Shown here: positions 10,338 through 18,266 of the stretch, one piece after another
Layout: every line of letters begins with the position of its first letter
Position numbering within the stretch: position 1 is the first letter of the stretch
The notes under the pieces: model-generated
The model's input: only the letters and a program-made list of their open reading frames with translations
Databases searched by the model: none
Told to the model about the DNA's origin: nothing
Made by a program: the position numbers and the translations under genes
Assembly: GCA_002897735.1 (NCBI GenBank)
Contig: BDTW01000045.1
Coordinates: forward strand, 1-33,851
Direction of reading: 5' to 3'
Length of the DNA stretch: 33,851 bases
Origin: a bacterium BMS3Bbin13
Lineage (GTDB): Bacteria > Pseudomonadota > Gammaproteobacteria > 21-64-14

Positions 10338-10886
10338 TCATACAAATAGGTTGCGCATCGTCTTGGTGAGGGTCTCGGTCGCCTCCGGCGCCGCAACTTC
10401 CATCACGTGTTCGAGAATCCAGCGCTGATCGCGCGGACCCATCGCCGCGGCTACGTGCCGGCCGAATCCGCGCAGGAAACCGATGTCCGGCCCGGACGCC
10501 TCGCTGAATCCGAACTCCGCGTACTCGGACATCCGCTCGTTCAGGGTATCGATGAACGACGCCCGATAGTCCCCGGGACCTTGCAGATCCGCGAGGTTGC
10601 CCGCCATCAGCTCGGCCGCCCGAACGCCGAAGGCGTTGATGAAACGCCCGCGCTCGTCCACGTCCATGCGAGTCGCCGTGAGGCGGTCGGCGACATGTAC
10701 CAGAAACGCCATGAACTCCTCGATGACCGTCAGACGCTGTAATTGCGTATCGGCCTGAAGTCCCCCGTTTTCCATTTCGAGCACGCTACGAGTGGCGGCG
10801 TTCCAGGCCACGGCGTTGAGCACGCTCGCGATCGCCTCCGGGGTATGGGCTTTACCGGGCTTGCTCCAGCGACTTTTAGCGCGCAC
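10338..10886 (-). CDS. Conserved-looking alpha-helical protein of unknown function
   Basis: I do not recognise this 182-residue protein. It appears wholly helical and soluble, without signal peptide or membrane segment, and has no cysteines. The start is a GTG at 10886 with GGAGG 8 nt upstream, a convincing initiation site. Segments such as FMAFLVHVADRLTATRMD and FINAFGVRAAELMAGNLADL resemble a helical bundle. The gene faces away from the 347-residue gene at 11190 and shares an upstream region of about 300 bp with it, so the two may be coregulated. Function is not inferred. Confidence 0.75.
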   Translation of the reverse strand: MRAKSRWSKPGKAHTPEAIASVLNAVAWNAATRSVLEMENGGLQADTQLQRLTVIEEFMAFLVHVADRLTATRMDVDERGRFINAFGVRAAELMAGNLADLQGPGDYRASFIDTLNERMSEYAEFGFSEASGPDIGFLRGFGRHVAAAMGPRDQRWILEHVMEVAAPEATETLTKTMRNLFV

Positions 10887-11189
10887 CTGCGGTTCCTCCG
10901 GCAGCCTGTCGAATTCAGGGGATTCGCGGCAAAGTGAGTGGGAGATCGAAGACCGTTTTCCGATCGTTTGAGGCGAACACCAGACACTGTCGACGAAAGC
11001 GGCGAGTATACGCCCATCCCCGGTGCAACTGGCAGACGTGCGGATCTCATGCTACGATCAATTCGCAAGTTTGCTTTTGTAAATCATTCCGATAGCTGGT
11101 TGACGGGTGAGTTCCGAGGTGCGGAGCCGGGGCCGTGCGAGGGTCGACCCCACGCCGCGGCGACGGCCCCCAAGCGGGCGGAAGGCGCC
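10887..11189. promoter_or_regulatory. Shared 303-bp upstream region of two divergent unknown genes
   Basis: No gene is supported here, although the plus-strand frame stays open from 10938. The stretch at about 11050-11100 is AT-richer than its surroundings and includes TACGAT and the small palindrome GCAAGTTTGC. I could not assign a confident promoter. Confidence 0.3.
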
Positions 11190-12233
11190 ATGTCCCTGAA
11201 ACTCGAGGCGCTACGCGCCACAGTACAGCACAATTGCCATGTTGCCGACGCGCGCCACGCCGGCGAGAATGGTCTGTGCGTCTACCTGCTCAAGATGCGC
11301 GAGTACTACCGCTGGGAGCAGGGTCATTCCTTTCGCGCCGTACTGTCAAAGAACGCCGTGGCCGATTGGATCACCGAGCGCGAACAGCTCTGGGATCGAC
11401 TGGAGGGCGCCTCCTTCGAGCCCGTCCGCTTCGACGGACAGGACTTCGAGCCCTTCGACACCGCGCGGATCAACGAAGCGGTCGGCGCGGACGGGCTGGT
11501 CTACAGCGGCGGCATCGGCCGGCAGGCGAAACCGCATTTCTTCCTGGGATGTCTCGAACGCCGCGAGGAGCACGACGGCTTCACCGTGCTCGTGTCCGCA
11601 CGCGAGTACGCCCGCGACCTGACGGCCCCGCCGGCCATGAGCCTGGACGGCATGATCTTCGTACGCCGTGAGTCACTGCGCCGGATGATTTGGGAGAAGG
11701 TCGAGGAGTGGCGCTGGAACCGGCGCGAGACCCCCATGAGACGTGCGATCGCCTACTACGACTTCGATCGCGACCCCGATCGTGCGCTCGACGAGATGAC
11801 GGAGAACGAACTCGAGACGCTGATCCTGCACGAAGTCGGCGAAGTGCGCGTCGGGCGGGAACTCGGCGGTGACTGGGAATCGCTGCTTGCGACCCTGCCC
11901 CGCTCCCGGGCGGAATTGATGGTGCGGGCCGTGCGCGACCACCTGGTCGACTGCGCCTCGGCCCTACCGGCGCTGTTCAAGGCGCTGGACCCCTCCTCCC
12001 TGCATTTCTATTTCGCGAACCTCGGCGGGATGCGCAAGGAGCTGTTTCCGACGTTGCGCGACGCCTACGACCGCTGGCTGGCGGAAGACGATCTCTCCGC
12101 CCTGGACGAAACCACCCGACGCGGAGCCGAGCACTGGCACTCGCTCGCCGAGCGGATACTCGATCTCCACCGGCGGGAGGGACCCGGGTGTATGCAGGCG
12201 ATCGAGGAGTTGATCGGTGCCAACCGCCTGTAA
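11190..12233 (+). CDS. Unknown conserved protein, 347 residues
   Basis: The ATG at 11190 follows GGAAGG at good distance and gives 347 residues; the frame is open further upstream, but that part reads as low-complexity and is unlikely to be coding. The product is soluble, rich in Arg, Glu and Trp. It shows the blocks DARHAGENGLCVYLLKMREYYRWEQG, in part, then LVYSGGIGRQAKPHFFLG, FVRRESLRRMIWEKVEEW, and SLHFYFANLGGMRKELFPTL. The pattern reminds me of a family that NCBI labels Sfum_1244, which I associate with sulfur-metabolising bacteria, but I cannot verify this. No catalytic motif is recognisable. It lies convergent to the cysteine-free DsrC gene. Confidence 0.75.
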   Translation: MSLKLEALRATVQHNCHVADARHAGENGLCVYLLKMREYYRWEQGHSFRAVLSKNAVADWITEREQLWDRLEGASFEPVRFDGQDFEPFDTARINEAVGADGLVYSGGIGRQAKPHFFLGCLERREEHDGFTVLVSAREYARDLTAPPAMSLDGMIFVRRESLRRMIWEKVEEWRWNRRETPMRRAIAYYDFDRDPDRALDEMTENELETLILHEVGEVRVGRELGGDWESLLATLPRSRAELMVRAVRDHLVDCASALPALFKALDPSSLHFYFANLGGMRKELFPTLRDAYDRWLAEDDLSALDETTRRGAEHWHSLAERILDLHRREGPGCMQAIEELIGANRL

Positions 12234-12341: not shown

Positions 12342-12683
12342 TCAGTAGCCGCCCTTGCGCCGGCTCTCCGGTAATCCCGCGATCCGCCCGCCCTGCTTGC
12401 TCGGATCGTGCGGAAACAGGGCGTAGAGGGTCTTGGCGTCCACTTTCTCCCCTTCCCACACCGACTGCATCCCCTTGACGAGGGTCCGCGTGTTGGGCTG
12501 CGCGCCGCCGTTGTTGAAGTATTGGTCCCGGAGGTGATCGATCACCTCCCAGTGCCGGTCGGTCAGCTCAATACCTTCCTCCGCGGCAATGGCGTGCGCG
12601 ATCTCTTTGTTCCAATCGTCCTGGTTCTCCAGAAATCCCATGGACGTCGTTTCGATTACCTTCCCGCCGATCTCCAGTGTCAT
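12342..12683 (-). CDS. DsrC/TusE-family paralogue without cysteines (RspA-like)
   Basis: This 113-residue protein has the whole DsrC fold: IGGKVIETTSMGFL, DWNKEIAHAIAAEEGIELTDRHWEVI, and the arm motif KQGGRIAGLPESRRKGGY. DsrC carries sulfur on a penultimate Cys (CysA) and forms a disulfide or trisulfide with CysB ten residues earlier. Here the CysB position is Gly99, CysA is missing, and no Cys exists anywhere in the chain, so sulfur transfer is impossible. Family members without both Cys have been termed RspA and proposed to be regulatory. A good GGGGAG lies 5 nt before the ATG. It is the last gene of the cluster behind the Cas6-like gene and lies across the divergent region from dsrE. Confidence 0.92.
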   Translation of the reverse strand: MTLEIGGKVIETTSMGFLENQDDWNKEIAHAIAAEEGIELTDRHWEVIDHLRDQYFNNGGAQPNTRTLVKGMQSVWEGEKVDAKTLYALFPHDPSKQGGRIAGLPESRRKGGY

Positions 12684-12783: not shown

Positions 12784-13476
12784 TCAGCCGTCCTCGCCGC
12801 GCCGCACCGGCGCGATGCCCTTGTGCGGGATGAATAATCCACAGCCCATCATACGTCGGCGGCCGAGACCGCACTGTTGCAGGCGTACCGATTGCTCCGC
12901 GTCCAGGTCCGCCACCATCAGGCTGCGGGTGAAGATCGCGCCTTCCGGTGTACGCAGCGAGTGGGATCTTCCACACAGCAGCTTGCGTACGGGGATCCCG
13001 GTCTCGCGCAGCCGCGCGGCGGAGTCTTCCAGAAAATCCTCCTCACCCTGCGCCGTATCCGCGACCACATACCGGGCGAACAGGGTCGGCAGGGTGCTGA
13101 GCGGGCGTACCGTGGCCTCCCCGATACGCAACGCATACCCGGCGACATCCAGTTCACTCCCGCCAAGGGCGCGCGCATCGGCGACGCGTACCTTGGGCAG
13201 ACGCAACGTCATACGCGTGCGGCGCGAGAGGTAGAGTACGTCGCGCTCCGGGTCCTCGGGCCGATACCAGCCGTTGCCCGATTCCGCCCCGTGGATGAGA
13301 TGCACCCCGGCGCCGGGCTCGTGTGTCAGCCACGGCAGCGCCTCGCACAGCGCGCTCGAGAGCGCGTGGGCGTGATCCGGCGGCAGGCAGCGACAGGAGA
13401 CGGCGAATGCCAGGTCCACGATATCGTCGGGAACCACATAGTCCTGCGCCTGCTTGTCGTCTTCGTCCCAGTACAT
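12784..13476 (-). CDS. Cas6/Cmx6-like (subtype MYXAN) RAMP protein, orphan
   Basis: This 230-residue protein matches the pattern of the type I MYXAN Cas6 family (Cmx6), the RNA endonuclease that cuts CRISPR precursor RNA. The N-terminal VDLAFAVSCRCLPPDHAHALSSAL, in parts, holds candidate catalytic His35/His37 (CLPPDHAHAL). The middle has GVHLIHGA, RTRMTLRLPK and the paired LDVAGYALRIG-x4-RPL motif. The end has the glycine-rich RNA-binding loop GLGRRRMMGCGLFIP. About 15 extra residues precede the usual start. No CRISPR array or other cas gene exists in the window. GGAGG is 8 nt before the ATG, and the 64-residue gene ends 15 nt upstream. Substrate RNA unknown; the context points to sulfur metabolism rather than immunity. 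Family call is from motif memory. Confidence 0.75.
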   Translation of the reverse strand: MYWDEDDKQAQDYVVPDDIVDLAFAVSCRCLPPDHAHALSSALCEALPWLTHEPGAGVHLIHGAESGNGWYRPEDPERDVLYLSRRTRMTLRLPKVRVADARALGGSELDVAGYALRIGEATVRPLSTLPTLFARYVVADTAQGEEDFLEDSAARLRETGIPVRKLLCGRSHSLRTPEGAIFTRSLMVADLDAEQSVRLQQCGLGRRRMMGCGLFIPHKGIAPVRRGEDG

Positions 13477-13491
13477 CCGTGCAACCTCCGC

Positions 13492-13686
13492 TTACTCCCG
13501 CAGCGCGGCGGAAAACGCCGCCTCGAGCCGGTCTTCCCAATCCTCGGGGGTGTCCTGAAACGGTGGTTTGACGTCCATGCTGAAGAACATCTCCCCTTCC
13601 CGCGCCCGTTCCTGCACCGTGCGGACCAACTCGTCGAAGGAACCGAGATCGTGGCGCCGCAGCAGAATCTCACTCAACCAGAGCAC
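13492..13686 (-). CDS. Small unknown protein, 64 residues, first gene of the cas6-like cluster
   Basis: I do not recognise this family. The product is a charged soluble protein (LSEILLRRHDLGSFDELVRTVQER, in part, then EGEMFFSMDVKPPFQDTPEDWEDRL). The start is a GTG at 13686 preceded at 4 nt by a perfect AGGAGG, so translation is likely strong. It ends 15 nt before the Cas6-like gene, so the two are almost certainly one transcript. With a predicted N-terminal helix and an acidic C-terminal half it could be a small partner of the Cas6-like protein, but this is inference from position only. Confidence 0.75.
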   Translation of the reverse strand: MLWLSEILLRRHDLGSFDELVRTVQERAREGEMFFSMDVKPPFQDTPEDWEDRLEAAFSAALRE

Positions 13687-13835
13687 ATCACCTCCTCTCG
13701 CCGACGGAATGCCGGTCCCGTGCCGGCGATCCGGTCATGATAGCGCGCCCTGTGGAGTGATCGCGGCGAGAATGGCCCACCGTTCACCAATCAACTCTCG
13801 GAATCGATCGCAATTCACTGATTCCACAAAGGTCC

Positions 13836-13847
13836 ATTGTAAACAAT
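13836..13847. promoter_or_regulatory. Palindrome ATTGT-AA-ACAAT
   Basis: A perfect 5-bp-arm inverted repeat with a 2-bp centre lies 150 bp upstream of the minus-strand cluster. The size and AT character fit a dimeric repressor or activator site; no regulator is assigned. Confidence 0.35.
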
Positions 13848-14034
13848 CTATCGGGAAGACACCCGACGGGCTCACGGGGATGTTACCCTGCGATCCGAAG
13901 TTCGGAGACGAAGGGCCGCTCGACGCGGGCGTCAAGCTGCACCGTCATGCCGGGTGCGGATACGGCTCCCGGCAGATCCGGCGGCCATGCTCGCGCCGCC
14001 ATTAAGAAAAAACAACGAATGAATCGGCCGCACC

Positions 14035-14052
14035 ATACCCCATTGGGGGTAT
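14035..14052. promoter_or_regulatory. Palindrome ATACCCC-ATTG-GGGGTAT
   Basis: Perfect 7-bp arms flank a 4-bp centre in the middle of the divergent region, 300 bp before dsrE. The downstream half overlaps TATATT, which could serve as a -10 element. This is the strongest operator candidate for the dsr operon in the window. Confidence 0.45.
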
Positions 14053-14286
14053 ATTCGGTCCGACCGATTCCCCAATTGGTAGGATGTTCGCCTCTATGCC
14101 GCGCACCGTAGACTTGCGGGGTCGGGATGTCCGAGCACGACGGCCCCCACTCCGTCCGGGAGGCCCGCATAGCGGATATCCGTTGCGATGATTGCAGGCA
14201 TGAAGGAGGCCTCCACGAAACTCCGGATTCTGATCCAGATCAAGGACGGCGGGGGCATTCGAGCCAATAATTCATCAGATTAGATC

Positions 14287-14300
14287 GGCGGGTACCCGCC
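14287..14300. promoter_or_regulatory. Palindrome GGCGGGTACCCGCC in the dsrE leader
   Basis: A 14-bp perfect palindrome lies 52 nt before the dsrE start codon. It may be a DNA site or a small hairpin in the leader. The dsrE Shine-Dalgarno AAGGG (14340-14344) follows downstream and is not sequestered by it. Confidence 0.35.
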
Positions 14301-14351
14301 TCCACCCGGTGCAGGGATATCGGGCTCACGGGAATCGACAAGGGCGAACTT

Positions 14352-14744
14352 ATGAAGCTAGGCATACTGGTCAACGAGGGGCCGTATCAGCATCAGGCCT
14401 CCGATACCGCCTATCAATTCACCAAGGCGGCGCTCGCGAAGGGCCACGAGATCTTCCGCATATTCTTCTACAATGACGGGGTCAACAACGGAACACGCCT
14501 CGGTGTGCCGCCGCAGGATGATCGCAATGTCACGAAGCTATGGTCCGAGCTCGCTGCGGAGCACGATCTGGACCTGGTCGTGTGCATCGCCGCCGCGCAG
14601 CGCCGCGGCATCCTGGATGCGAGCGAGGCCAAGCGCCACGGGAAAGACAGTTCGAACTTGGCGCCCGGATTCCGGATCTCTGGTCTGGGACAGTTGATCG
14701 AGGCCGGCATCCAGGCCGACCGGCTGGTGGTGTTCGGGGACTGA
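14352..14744 (+). CDS. dsrE: Sulfurtransferase subunit DsrE
   Basis: DsrE is the persulfide-carrying subunit of the cytoplasmic DsrE2F2H2 complex, which hands sulfur to DsrC during sulfur oxidation. The 130-residue chain has the DsrE/TusD fold (MKLGILVNEGPY at the start) and conserves the catalytic cysteine C78 in LDLVVCIAAAQRRGI. AAGGG lies 7 nt upstream of the ATG. It is the first gene of the operon here, which is unusual because dsrA and dsrB normally precede it. The presence of DsrE and DsrH cysteines marks the oxidative type of pathway. Confidence 0.97.
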   Translation: MKLGILVNEGPYQHQASDTAYQFTKAALAKGHEIFRIFFYNDGVNNGTRLGVPPQDDRNVTKLWSELAAEHDLDLVVCIAAAQRRGILDASEAKRHGKDSSNLAPGFRISGLGQLIEAGIQADRLVVFGD

Positions 14745-14792
14745 CCGCCGACTGCCGCGATAACCGAATGCGAATGGGGAGTGACGCCCAAT

Positions 14793-15203
14793 ATGTCCAC
14801 ATCGATGCCGAGTGAGCCTGGGGAGCAACAGGAGAATGCCCCCGCCGTAAAGAAATTCATGTATGTTAACCGCCGGGCGCCTTACGGAACCATCTACGCC
14901 CTCGAATCCCTGGAGGTCGTCCTCATCACGGCCGCCTTCGAGCAGGATGTGAGCTTGGTGTTCATCGACGACGGCATCTACCAGATCAAGAAGGGGCAGG
15001 ACACCGGGGGGATCGGGATGAAGAACTTCTCGCCCACCTTCCGCGCCCTGGAAGGCTACGACGTCGAGAAACTCTATGTCGAAAAGGAGTCCCTGCAGGC
15101 CCGGGGTTTGTCGGAAGACGATCTGATCGTTCCGGTGCAGGTGCTGTCCCGTGAGGAGCTGCGGGAATTTATGGATCAGCAGGAAGTCATCCTTACGTTC
15201 TGA
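14793..15203 (+). CDS. dsrF: Sulfurtransferase subunit DsrF
   Basis: DsrF is the structural partner of DsrE in the DsrEFH hexamer and is homologous to TusC. The body from KKFMYVNRRAPYGTIYALESLEVVL onward is typical, in parts, as are SLVFIDDGIYQIKKGQDT and GIGMKNFSPTFRAL. The chain has no cysteine, consistent with a non-catalytic role. The start is uncertain: ATG 14793 gives 136 residues, GTG 14781 and ATG 14805 are alternatives, and GGGGAG lies at 14777-14781 just before the GTG. The first 18 residues are not conserved in the family. Confidence 0.95.
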   Translation: MSTSMPSEPGEQQENAPAVKKFMYVNRRAPYGTIYALESLEVVLITAAFEQDVSLVFIDDGIYQIKKGQDTGGIGMKNFSPTFRALEGYDVEKLYVEKESLQARGLSEDDLIVPVQVLSREELREFMDQQEVILTF

Positions 15204-15216
15204 GGCGTAGAAACCC

Positions 15217-15525
15217 ATGACCATGCTACACACCGTCAACAAATCACCTTTCGAGCGGTATACGCTCGATTCCTGCCTGGACCACGCTCTAAAGGGCAGT
15301 GCCATCCTCCTGCTGGAGGACGGTATCTACGCGGCGCTGAAGGGAACGGCGATGACCGACAAGATCAAGGACGCCGCCCGGGAACACTCCATCTACGTCC
15401 TCGGCCCCGATGTGCACGCCCGGGGGATGAGCGAGGATCAGGTGATCGAGGGGGTGTCCATCGTGGGTTACGACGGGTTCGTCGATCTCGTCACCACCCA
15501 TGACAACATCCAGTCGTGGTTGTAA
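15217..15525 (+). CDS. dsrH: Sulfurtransferase subunit DsrH
   Basis: DsrH is the third subunit of DsrEFH (TusB homologue). The 102-residue protein carries the conserved C20 in LDSCLDHALKGSAILLLEDG, which in characterised DsrEFH takes part in the interaction with DsrC. It starts 13 nt after dsrF. Together with C78 of DsrE this shows a sulfur-transfer-competent complex. Confidence 0.97.
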   Translation: MTMLHTVNKSPFERYTLDSCLDHALKGSAILLLEDGIYAALKGTAMTDKIKDAAREHSIYVLGPDVHARGMSEDQVIEGVSIVGYDGFVDLVTTHDNIQSWL

Positions 15526-15576: not shown

Positions 15577-15909
15577 ATGACGATCGAGGTGAATGGAAAG
15601 ACCCTGGAGACCGACGAGGAAGGTTATCTTACCAACCTGAACGAGTGGACCCCCGAGGTCGGCACGAAGATGGCGAGCGACGAAGGCTGCGAGCTCACCA
15701 ACAATCACTGGGAAGTAATCAACTTCCTGCGTGAGTACTACGACGAGTACCAGATCGCCCCCGCCGTCCGGGTTCTCACCAAGGCCATCGGCAAGAAGCT
15801 CGGCGCCGACAAGGGCAACAGCAAGTACCTTTACGAACTGTTCCCTTACGGCCCGGCGAAGCAGGCCTGCAAATACGCCGGCCTTCCGAAGCCCACGGGC
15901 TGCGTCTGA
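15577..15909 (+). CDS. dsrC: Sulfur carrier protein DsrC
   Basis: DsrC is the 110-residue sulfur carrier that receives persulfide from DsrEFH, presents it to DsrAB, and exchanges electrons with DsrK as a thiol/disulfide. Both essential residues are present on the C-terminal arm: CysB (C98, KQACKYAGLP) and penultimate CysA (C109, TGCV), ten residues apart. The family motifs IEVNGKTLETDEEGYL and NHWEVINFLREYY are intact. AAGGAG lies 8 nt before the ATG, the best ribosome site in the operon, in keeping with the abundance of DsrC in cells. A second, cysteine-free family member is at 12342-12683. Confidence 0.98.
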   Translation: MTIEVNGKTLETDEEGYLTNLNEWTPEVGTKMASDEGCELTNNHWEVINFLREYYDEYQIAPAVRVLTKAIGKKLGADKGNSKYLYELFPYGPAKQACKYAGLPKPTGCV

Positions 15910-15988
15910 TGCACGGGACGGGGGGGGAGAATCTCCCCCTTGCCCCGTCATCCCCCAACTTGGTGTCGGAGCCGGAGAGATCGCAAAC

Positions 15989-16729
15989 ATGGACTTTCTG
16001 AGCGTAGCGTATGCCCTGCTCTTTTACTTTGCCGCCTTCGTGCTGGTGGTCGGCGTGGGCCGCAAGATCGTTCAATACGCACGCACGCCCGCACCCCTGA
16101 AGATTCCCACAACGCCCGCGCCGACCACCGGCACGGGCGTTGTGTTGCGGCTCGGGCGCGAGGTCGTATTCTTCTCGAGCCTGTTCAAATCCAACAAGTG
16201 GACTTGGCTGTTCGGGTGGATGTTCCATCTCTGTCTGCTCCTCGAGGCACTCCGGCATCTGCGGTACTTCACGCAGCCGGTGTGGGGGTGGGTCGTGCTG
16301 GTGCAGCCGTTTGGGAAATACGCGGCCTTCGGCATAGTGATCGGCCTGCTCGGGCTCTGGGGCCGGCGCTTTTTCGTCGATCGTGTCCGCTACATCAGCG
16401 CCCCGTCCGATCACCTTATGCTGATCCTGCTGCTGAGCATCGCGACGAGCGGCATACTCATGACCTTTGTCGATCATACCGACATCGTAAGCCTCAAGGC
16501 TTTCGCCCTTGGTCTGCTGTACGCGGACTGGCAGCCGATCCCGCACGATCCGTTGCTGCTGATTCATCTGGCCCTTGTGGCGGCTCTCATGATCGTGTTC
16601 CCGTTCAGCAAGCTGTTGCACGGACCCGCGTTGTTCTTCAGTCCGACCCGCAATCAGATCGACGATGCCCGGGAAAAGCGTCATGTCACGCCCTGGGCCT
16701 CCGATACGGGCACGGGCGCCGCGGGTTGA
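15989..16729 (+). CDS. dsrM: Membrane cytochrome b subunit DsrM
   Basis: DsrM is the NarI-like haem b membrane subunit of DsrMKJOP and exchanges electrons with the quinone pool. The 246-residue chain has five membrane helices (about 3-23, 72-92, 109-127, 143-162 and 188-210). Histidines in helices 2 and 5 (H80, H90, H193, H211) are the likely haem ligands. The ATG at 15989 is chosen because MDFLSVAYALLFYF starts the first helix directly; the frame is open further upstream into dsrC. dsrK follows after 46 nt. Confidence 0.95.
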   Translation: MDFLSVAYALLFYFAAFVLVVGVGRKIVQYARTPAPLKIPTTPAPTTGTGVVLRLGREVVFFSSLFKSNKWTWLFGWMFHLCLLLEALRHLRYFTQPVWGWVVLVQPFGKYAAFGIVIGLLGLWGRRFFVDRVRYISAPSDHLMLILLLSIATSGILMTFVDHTDIVSLKAFALGLLYADWQPIPHDPLLLIHLALVAALMIVFPFSKLLHGPALFFSPTRNQIDDAREKRHVTPWASDTGTGAAG

Positions 16730-16775: not shown

Positions 16776-18266
16776 GTGGCGAAATTCCAGACCCCGGAGA
16801 TCAAGGAATACCCGGTCATCCCCCGGATTCGCGAAGGGGCGATGGCGGGTCTCAAACCCCTTACCGCGAAGCCGGATCATCAGCGGGCGCTCGGGTTTCC
16901 CGGCGAGCTGATGGACAACTGGAAGGAGGTCGCCATCGACAAGATGGCCGATCTCCTCGGGAAATATCGCTCCCTTCCGGTGTTTCTCGACGCCTGCGTC
17001 AAGTGCGGGGCTTGCACCGACAAGTGCCACTATTTCATCGGAACGGCCGACCCCAAGAATATGCCGGTCGCCCGGCAGGATCTGCTGCGTAAGGTCTACC
17101 GGCGTCATTTCACCTTCGCCGGAAAATATTTTCCGAAACTGGTCGGAGCGGTCGATTTAACCAAAGAGGTGCTCGACGACTGGTACAGCTACTACCATCA
17201 GTGCGCGGAATGCCGCCGGTGTTCGGTCTACTGCCCCTACGGGATCGATACCGCGGAGATCACCATGGCCGGGCGCGAAATTCTCGACAGCGTCGGGATC
17301 GGGGCCCGGTACAGCAATGAGATCATCGGCAAAGTCTACATTATCGGCAACAACCTGGGGCTGCCGGCGCCGGCCCTGAGAAACACCCTCGAGGGTCTCG
17401 AGGAGGATGTGAAGGAGGACACCGGTGTCGACGTGCGTTACCCCGTCGATGAAAAGGGGGCCGAGGTCCTGGTCATCGCCCCTTCGGCCGACTTCTTCGC
17501 GGAACCGCACGTCGACGGACTGATCGGCTACGGCAAGGTGTTCCACGAAGCGGGTATCAGTTGGACACTCAGTTCCTACGCTTCCGAGGCCGCCAATTTC
17601 GGGATCTTCATCGGCTCCTACGAGAACATGAAGCGGGTCGCGATGCGTATCCGTGAGGCGGCCCTCGATCTCGGCGTCAAGCGCATCGTCGTCGGCGAGT
17701 GCGGGCATGCCTGGCGCGTGGCCTACAGCTTCTGGAATACGCTCATCGGCCCGTTCGACTTCCTGGATCCGCGTTACCCGGCGCCGCAGCACATCTGCGA
17801 ACTCACCTATGACCTGATCCAGCGTGGTGCACTGACTCTGGACAAGTCCGCCAACGACCATCGGGTCGTGACTTTCCACGACTCGTGCAACGTGGCGCGC
17901 GCCACTCGTATGGGCAACAAGCCGGGCGGGCAGCTCACCATCCCCCGCGATGTGATCAAGGCGGTCTGCAATAACTTCTATGACATGGACGCGGGAACCA
18001 TCGGCGAGGCCACCGTCTGCTGCGGAGGCGGAGGCGGTCTGCTGACCGACGACTTGATGGAGTTGCGCGTGAAGGGTGCGCTCCCCCGCATGCAGGCGTT
18101 GCGCCACGTCGTCGAGGAACACGGGGTAACGCACATGGCCGCCATCTGCGCCATCTGCAAAACCCAGTTCGCCAAGGTGCTTCCGTACTACAATTTCTCC
18201 ATGGACCAGATCATTTCCGTACACCACTTGGTAGGTGACGCAGTGGTCCTCGGAGCCAAACAATAG
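16776..18266 (+). CDS. dsrK: Iron-sulfur protein DsrK (HdrD-like)
   Basis: DsrK is the cytoplasmic catalytic subunit of DsrMKJOP. It resembles heterodisulfide reductase HdrD and is thought to interconvert the dithiol and oxidised forms of DsrC. The 496-residue chain has two [4Fe-4S] sites, C74-x2-C-x2-C-x3-C84 and C143-x2-C-x2-C-x3-C153. CCG-type cysteine motifs for the special catalytic cluster follow (GECGHAW, HDSCNVAR, VCCGGGGG, CAICKTQF). The start is a GTG at 16776 with GAGG 9 nt upstream and a typical MAKFQTPEIKEYPVIP. All expected cysteines appear present. Confidence 0.97.
   Translation: MAKFQTPEIKEYPVIPRIREGAMAGLKPLTAKPDHQRALGFPGELMDNWKEVAIDKMADLLGKYRSLPVFLDACVKCGACTDKCHYFIGTADPKNMPVARQDLLRKVYRRHFTFAGKYFPKLVGAVDLTKEVLDDWYSYYHQCAECRRCSVYCPYGIDTAEITMAGREILDSVGIGARYSNEIIGKVYIIGNNLGLPAPALRNTLEGLEEDVKEDTGVDVRYPVDEKGAEVLVIAPSADFFAEPHVDGLIGYGKVFHEAGISWTLSSYASEAANFGIFIGSYENMKRVAMRIREAALDLGVKRIVVGECGHAWRVAYSFWNTLIGPFDFLDPRYPAPQHICELTYDLIQRGALTLDKSANDHRVVTFHDSCNVARATRMGNKPGGQLTIPRDVIKAVCNNFYDMDAGTIGEATVCCGGGGGLLTDDLMELRVKGALPRMQALRHVVEEHGVTHMAAICAICKTQFAKVLPYYNFSMDQIISVHHLVGDAVVLGAKQ

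Follow-up and report, generated by a model that had tools for sequence, protein, structure and literature searches.

A widely conserved Cas6 protein that stands apart from CRISPR belongs to the reverse-dsr locus of Gammaproteobacteria. To our knowledge, Cas6 proteins are met almost only as processors of CRISPR RNA. Here a single, conserved cas6 gene lies beside the dsr genes of almost all sulfur-oxidising Gammaproteobacteria sampled, away from CRISPR, and it thus seems that bacteria have made a CRISPR RNA enzyme part of sulfur metabolism. The gene lies in a 33,851-nucleotide stretch of DNA (the window; contig BDTW01000045.1) from bacterium BMS3Bbin13, the features of which are listed in Table 1.

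Table 1. Features of the window discussed in the text
Feature	Position	Strand	Remarks	Basis
dsr-linked Cas6/Cmx6-family protein	12784..13476	-	230 aa, ATG start	profiles, conservation, model, fold matches
s64, 64-aa protein, no known family	13492..13686	-	15 bp upstream of cas6; in 106/131 loci	
DsrC-family protein	12342..12683	-	ends LPESRRKGGY, without C-terminal cysteines; 100 bp downstream of cas6	PF04358, 1e-33
dsrE	14352..14744	+	first gene of divergent operon in source genome	Pfam/NCBIfam profiles
dsrF	14781..15203	+		Pfam/NCBIfam profiles
dsrH	15217..15525	+		Pfam/NCBIfam profiles
dsrC	15577..15909	+	with C-terminal Cys	Pfam/NCBIfam profiles
dsrM	15998..16705	+	start approximate	tblastn, 71% identity
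dsrK	16776..18266	+		79% identity over matched stretch 16776-17912
dsrC-dsrM intercistronic stem-loop	15913..15948	+	candidate substrate	fold of 15907-15997, -34.4 kcal/mol

The open reading frame encodes a Cas6-family protein, and the family assignment of the original prediction was right. It matched PF09559 (Pfam Cas6) with an E-value of 3.4e-65 and 220 bits (cut-off 26.7) over profile positions 1-190 of 191, that is, end to end, and TIGR02807 (cas6_cmx6), the NCBIfam model for type I-MYXAN, at 1.2e-40 and 139.6 bits (cut-off 98.85). The source genome (2.69 Mb, 97% complete) holds one copy. Structural comparison, proposed at the outset as a check along with the profile searches, gave the same answer as the profiles. 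An AlphaFold2 model made from 11 input sequences (mean pLDDT 79.8, pTM 0.76) has the double ferredoxin-like RAMP fold of Cas6, and its top matches (Foldseek, VIA-align) were all Cas6 proteins. The best, a type I-B CAST Cas6 (8fcu_B, Z 23.3), superimposed on the predicted model at 2.4 Å over 194 residues, and further Cas6 structures matched at Z of about 14-16.

Cas6 endoribonucleases process repeat RNA by cutting a hairpin at its 3' base. In the dsr-linked protein, His35 stands at the start of helix 1, in the motif PxDH, at the usual position of the Cas6 catalytic histidine, and from general knowledge of these enzymes we take it to be the catalytic residue. An alignment of 128 dsr-group homologues with the CRISPR-linked Cmx6 proteins showed His35 in 126 of the 128 and in all three of the latter. 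R92, G203, G211 and G213 were invariant or nearly so in 60 sequences, CRISPR ones included, and the C-terminal glycine-rich loop (G203/G205/G211/G213) is conserved in dsr-linked Cas6; both the loop and N-terminal histidine candidates had been singled out at the start. By comparison, conservation of W3, N68, G69, W70, R86, K165 and K219 is largely confined to the dsr group. The Cas6 fold and His35 together suggest that the dsr-linked protein would cleave RNA. In the closest solved Cas6, from CAST (8fcj_B), Asn replaces His35, so the histidine can be lost in this family with the protein still part of an RNA-bound complex.

The distribution of the gene was followed in two samples. In the first, 369 gammaproteobacterial genomes drawn evenly, the dsr-type Cas6 family was present in 122, always as one gene (split into two fragments in one carrier), and dsrA, called at E < 1e-50 for true DsrA, in 121; both occurred together in 115 (Fisher p 1.8e-78, uncorrected for relatedness). 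The six genomes with dsrA and without Cas6 seemed exceptional at first, but in every one of them the contig with dsrA is truncated or ends at that gene; one still shows s64 and a TauD gene at its edge, just where cas6 would come next. The second sample comprised 397 genomes across the phylum, 44 of them with DsrA, and Cas6 was found in 6/6 gammaproteobacterial dsrA-bearing genomes and in 0/38 from other classes. Two of these six (the source genome and G074) are shared with the first sample; the four new loci, from other families, are all dsr-linked, in the arrangement dsrA <-> cas6 - DsrC-like - TauD. A family-profile search for a distant Cas6 in six non-gammaproteobacterial dsr genomes found none, which is a weak, empty answer, and plasmid-borne dsrA, sought as a further control, gave no match. 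As dsr-bearing genomes of other classes do without Cas6, the protein is not needed for the pathway itself. By its linkage to and co-occurrence with dsrA it is nevertheless a component of the gammaproteobacterial dsr locus. Its connection with sulfur metabolism is strongly supported, and the linkage suggests that it would act within the dsr programme. Genomes of only 1.0-1.1 Mb (G040, G139, G247, G276 and G335) have kept Cas6 and have no Cas1.

We collected 131 loci with this cas6 and clustered their open reading frames; such a survey of homologues near dsrC-like genes and away from CRISPR loci had been proposed as a check, and came out positive. The usual order is dsrQ (a TauD-like dioxygenase, PF02668) - s64 - [236-aa protein] - cas6 - DsrC-like. 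This cassette is transcribed away from dsrABEFHCMK: DsrA is divergent in 91/91 cases, and dsrABEFH genes were seen in 77 of the 94 loci with 7 kb of upstream sequence. According to PMC7596348, which cites Lenk et al. 2012, dsrQ is a known divergent gene upstream of dsrA. Among the 131 loci, s64 occurs in 106 and dsrQ/TauD in 91, a DsrC-like gene follows on the cas6 strand in 90 of the 123 with room downstream, and eight have no cassette partner nearby. The gap between s64 and cas6 is about 13 bp across loci, close to that in the window, where the 64-residue neighbour and the DsrC paralogue are both on the cas6 strand, as had been claimed. s64 has the pattern MLWLSEILL...DVKPPF.DTP..W..RLEAAF, with P41, P47, W50, E55 and F58 invariant; Pfam and NCBIfam profiles place it in no known family, and its fold had no PDB match. 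Of 97 cassette DsrC-like proteins, 88 have no cysteine among their last 12 residues, where 80/80 operon DsrC proteins have it, which makes sulfur transfer by the DsrC-like protein unlikely.

Other genes recur in and around the cassette. The 236-aa protein, of no family, sits between s64 and cas6 in L112 (8505-9215) and 41 other loci, about a third. Beyond the DsrC-like gene, window positions 10938-12233 (DUF6866 by cluster membership) and 10338-10886 (a 182-aa protein) have counterparts in 46-49 of 131 loci; in other genomes these genes are often found with 2OG-Fe(II) oxygenases.

The original prediction placed cas6 beside the dsr operon, which holds for dsrEFHCMK, adjoining it in the window, and fails for dsrAB, which are not in the window. 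In the source genome neither dsrAB nor dsrQ lies in the interval from s64 to dsrE, and the sole dsrAB stands alone on contig C24 (window 13690-14350 and L178 9585-11970). In G001, which belongs to the same genus, a complete locus coexists with an isolated copy of dsrAB, and the main copy was therefore probably lost in the source genome. Isolated second dsrAB copies recur elsewhere (L198, L199, L200 and L202). An inverted repeat, ATACCCCATTGGGGGTAT, occupies window positions 14035-14052, and words such as CACCCCAT, TATATCCC, GGGATAGA and CCTAGACTT are enriched in the dsrA leaders of about 90 loci; the repeat or these words could possibly be a regulator site of the divergent promoter. For A. vinosum the operon is given as dsrABEFHCMKLJOPNRS, and additional promoters are placed at dsrC and dsrS (PMC3368242).

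The dsr-linked Cas6 is not a stray CRISPR gene. The window, described initially as holding no CRISPR array or cas gene in 33.9 kb, contains no array-like repeats by a search that recovered the arrays on three plasmids with canonical Cmx6 as positive control. In the source genome Cas1 was not found, and Cas3 gave nothing above cut-off, only helicases below it; these two marker searches gave no sign of a CRISPR locus elsewhere in the genome lacking its own Cas6, which would have spoken against a new role. None of cas3, cas5, cas7, cas8 and cas1 was among the conserved neighbours in the 131 loci, and the eight without cassette partners had no recognisable cas genes either. One clear array was seen near any of 135 loci: in L144, from about 3488, 18 units of CTTTCTACCCCGAACGGGAAATTGAAA lie ~3-4 kb from a dsr-type cas6. 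Cas1 is present in 141 of the 369 gammaproteobacterial genomes and in 54 of the 122 Cas6 carriers (association p=0.11), leaving 68 carriers, the source genome among them, without it.

In an unrooted maximum-likelihood tree, one branch with support of 100/99 separates the CRISPR/CAST Cmx6 from the dsr proteins; the CRISPR side consists of five sequences only. This two-sided split is consistent with a single recruitment. The dsr-linked cas6 is under purifying selection, with dN/dS mostly 0.03-0.22 in same-genus pairs, and distances between Cas6 proteins correlate with those between DsrA proteins (r 0.43; 0/500 permutations). Five dsr-bearing genomes outside the Gammaproteobacteria have dsrQ-s64 and no Cas6; there, the pair precedes a ~70-80 aa protein, and next in line comes a gene that is SQR-like or siroheme-synthase-like (names given by eye, not by profile). 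The pair dsrQ-s64 thus appears to be older, with Cas6 and the Cys-less DsrC added in Gammaproteobacteria. In L235, L236 and L237 the ~70-80 aa protein, of no known family, reads APYGREIRLEDVAYESGMRLLR...REGRRFT.

The search for a conserved RNA target centred on the gaps between dsr genes. In 92% of 71 loci the dsrC-dsrM gap (median 76 nt) can form a hairpin below -12 kcal/mol, as against 44% of shuffles, seldom with a U-tract after it (8/71), and the dsrA-dsrB gap has a stem-loop in 65% versus 24% of shuffles; the signal stands out much less in the dsrH-dsrC, dsrB-dsrE and dsrM-dsrK gaps. The dsrC-dsrM hairpin as a Cas6-specific feature was weakened by the non-gammaproteobacterial dsr loci without Cas6, some of which also have hairpins there (6 loci, median -17 kcal/mol), and the hairpins vary in sequence, so that the intercistronic hairpins remain candidates only. 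No consistent conserved hairpin was found between cas6 and the DsrC-like gene, and a comparison of the window and seven related loci with Rfam yielded only tRNAs, elsewhere in the window. One hairpin, TTGATGCC-N4-GGCGTTGA..CAC, is common to the repeats beside three canonical Cmx6 genes; as a target in dsr loci it was rejected, its matches being scattered with no fixed position. The original interpretation stands, then, as to a CRISPR-free Cas6-family protein tied to sulfur oxidation, through co-occurrence with dsrA, the cassette and four more genomes; its suggestion that a structured leader or small RNA is cut fared less well, the search having given only candidate hairpins unspecific to Cas6-bearing loci.

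On balance we lean towards a recruited Cmx6-type Cas6 that controls the expression of sulfur-oxidation genes by acting on RNA, whether as a metal-independent endoribonuclease that recognises a given sequence or hairpin, or as an RNA-binding protein. It would have entered the module divergent from the reverse dissimilatory sulfite reductase operon once, in Gammaproteobacteria, and then been passed on vertically as one gene per genome; its partners are probably two further products of its transcript, the 64-aa protein and the Cys-less DsrC-like one. The best candidate targets are, speculatively, the dsrC-dsrM and dsrA-dsrB stem-loops, where a cut at the 3' base of the hairpin might release dsrC as a stable message and determine the ratios of the subunits. 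The narrower proposal, that this CRISPR-free Cas6 processes the polycistronic dsr mRNA at the stem-loops after dsrC and between dsrA and dsrB and so sets protein ratios, we put forward tentatively, as a possibility on the unlikely side; were it true, Cas6 would be a dedicated mRNA-processing factor of a metabolic operon.

Other readings share part of this evidence. The Cas6 fold might be kept with its catalysis unused, the protein being an RNA-binding regulator of dsr messages, e.g., a translational repressor. The CAST relative, a subunit of an RNA-guided complex without the histidine, is a precedent, and the invariants specific to the dsr group (W3, N68-G69-W70, R86, K165 and K219) suggest an altered binding surface; mere binding, however, would not need a histidine that is nearly invariant among very diverged members, and we consider this reading rather unlikely. 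RAMP folds can also serve as scaffolds, and since s64 and the DsrC-like protein are encoded together with Cas6, it could have lost its RNA activity and become their structural partner in a protein complex. This seems highly improbable in view of His35, Arg92 and the glycine loop, which are conserved and common to CRISPR Cmx6.

The target might instead be tRNA, or some other RNA connected with sulfur transfer: DsrEFH are related to TusBCD, and DsrC to TusE, of tRNA 2-thiolation (DsrEFH score as TusBCD and DsrC as TusE-like), and a DsrC-family gene follows cas6. Yet that gene's product mostly lacks the C-terminal cysteines, and cas6 tracks dsrA, which makes action away from the dsr messages improbable. 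Least credible is an ordinary CRISPR Cas6, left over or serving a distant CRISPR-Cas system of the same genome. TIGR02807 is a CRISPR equivalog model, many carriers also have Cas1, and L144 has its array about 4 kb away, but most carriers lack Cas1, the neighbourhoods show no cas genes, these loci do not conserve the hairpin typical of repeats beside canonical Cmx6, and the gene, always single and under purifying selection, tracks dsrA and not Cas1.

Under the preferred reading of a recruited Cas6 that controls sulfur-oxidation genes, the family offers a lead on the control of dsr expression, as well as a clean system for asking what Cas6 does outside immunity. In Gammaproteobacteria this Cas6 has become fixed in reverse-Dsr sulfur oxidation, a major energy pathway, even in the 1.0-1.1 Mb genomes, and many genomes are probably mis-annotated with a CRISPR type I-MYXAN gene. 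We found no report of a dsr-linked Cas6 in the open-licence papers covered by our searches (Cas6 with dsrAB, orphan Cas6, Cmx6/I-MYXAN, exaptation); the text of PMC7596348, the dsrQ paper, mentions neither Cas6 nor CRISPR, and the A. vinosum genome paper (PMC3368242) does not mention Cas6. A Cas6/Cmx6 on a Gloeobacter plasmid (L175 7974-8765), near a PAPS-reductase-like protein and with no annotated cas genes nearby, is possibly another CRISPR-free Cas6.

Among known systems, type I-MYXAN Cas6/Cmx6 (e.g., of Synechocystis 6714 pSYLB) belongs to the same family, with a full-length profile match and His35, R92, G203, G211 and G213 in common. It differs in sequence (26-28% identity, on a separate branch) and in setting, adjoining cas3, cas8/cmx8, cas5, cas4-cas1 and repeat arrays, whereas the dsr-linked Cas6 sits in the dsr cassette. 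The type I-B CAST Cas6 (PDB 8fcj/8fcu), to which the predicted fold comes closest (Z 23; 194-198 residues superimposed with an rmsd of 2.4-2.6 Å), works inside the Cascade of a transposon and has Asn where the dsr-linked protein has His35. The cassette DsrC-like protein shares PF04358 with the DsrC/TusE family and departs from it in having, in 88/97 cases, no Cys in its last 12 residues. The tauD-like dsrQ known from beside dsr operons is divergent, as it is here, where it heads a cassette with s64 and cas6; in the five non-gammaproteobacterial genomes, dsrQ-s64 is followed by the ~70-80 aa protein in place of Cas6.
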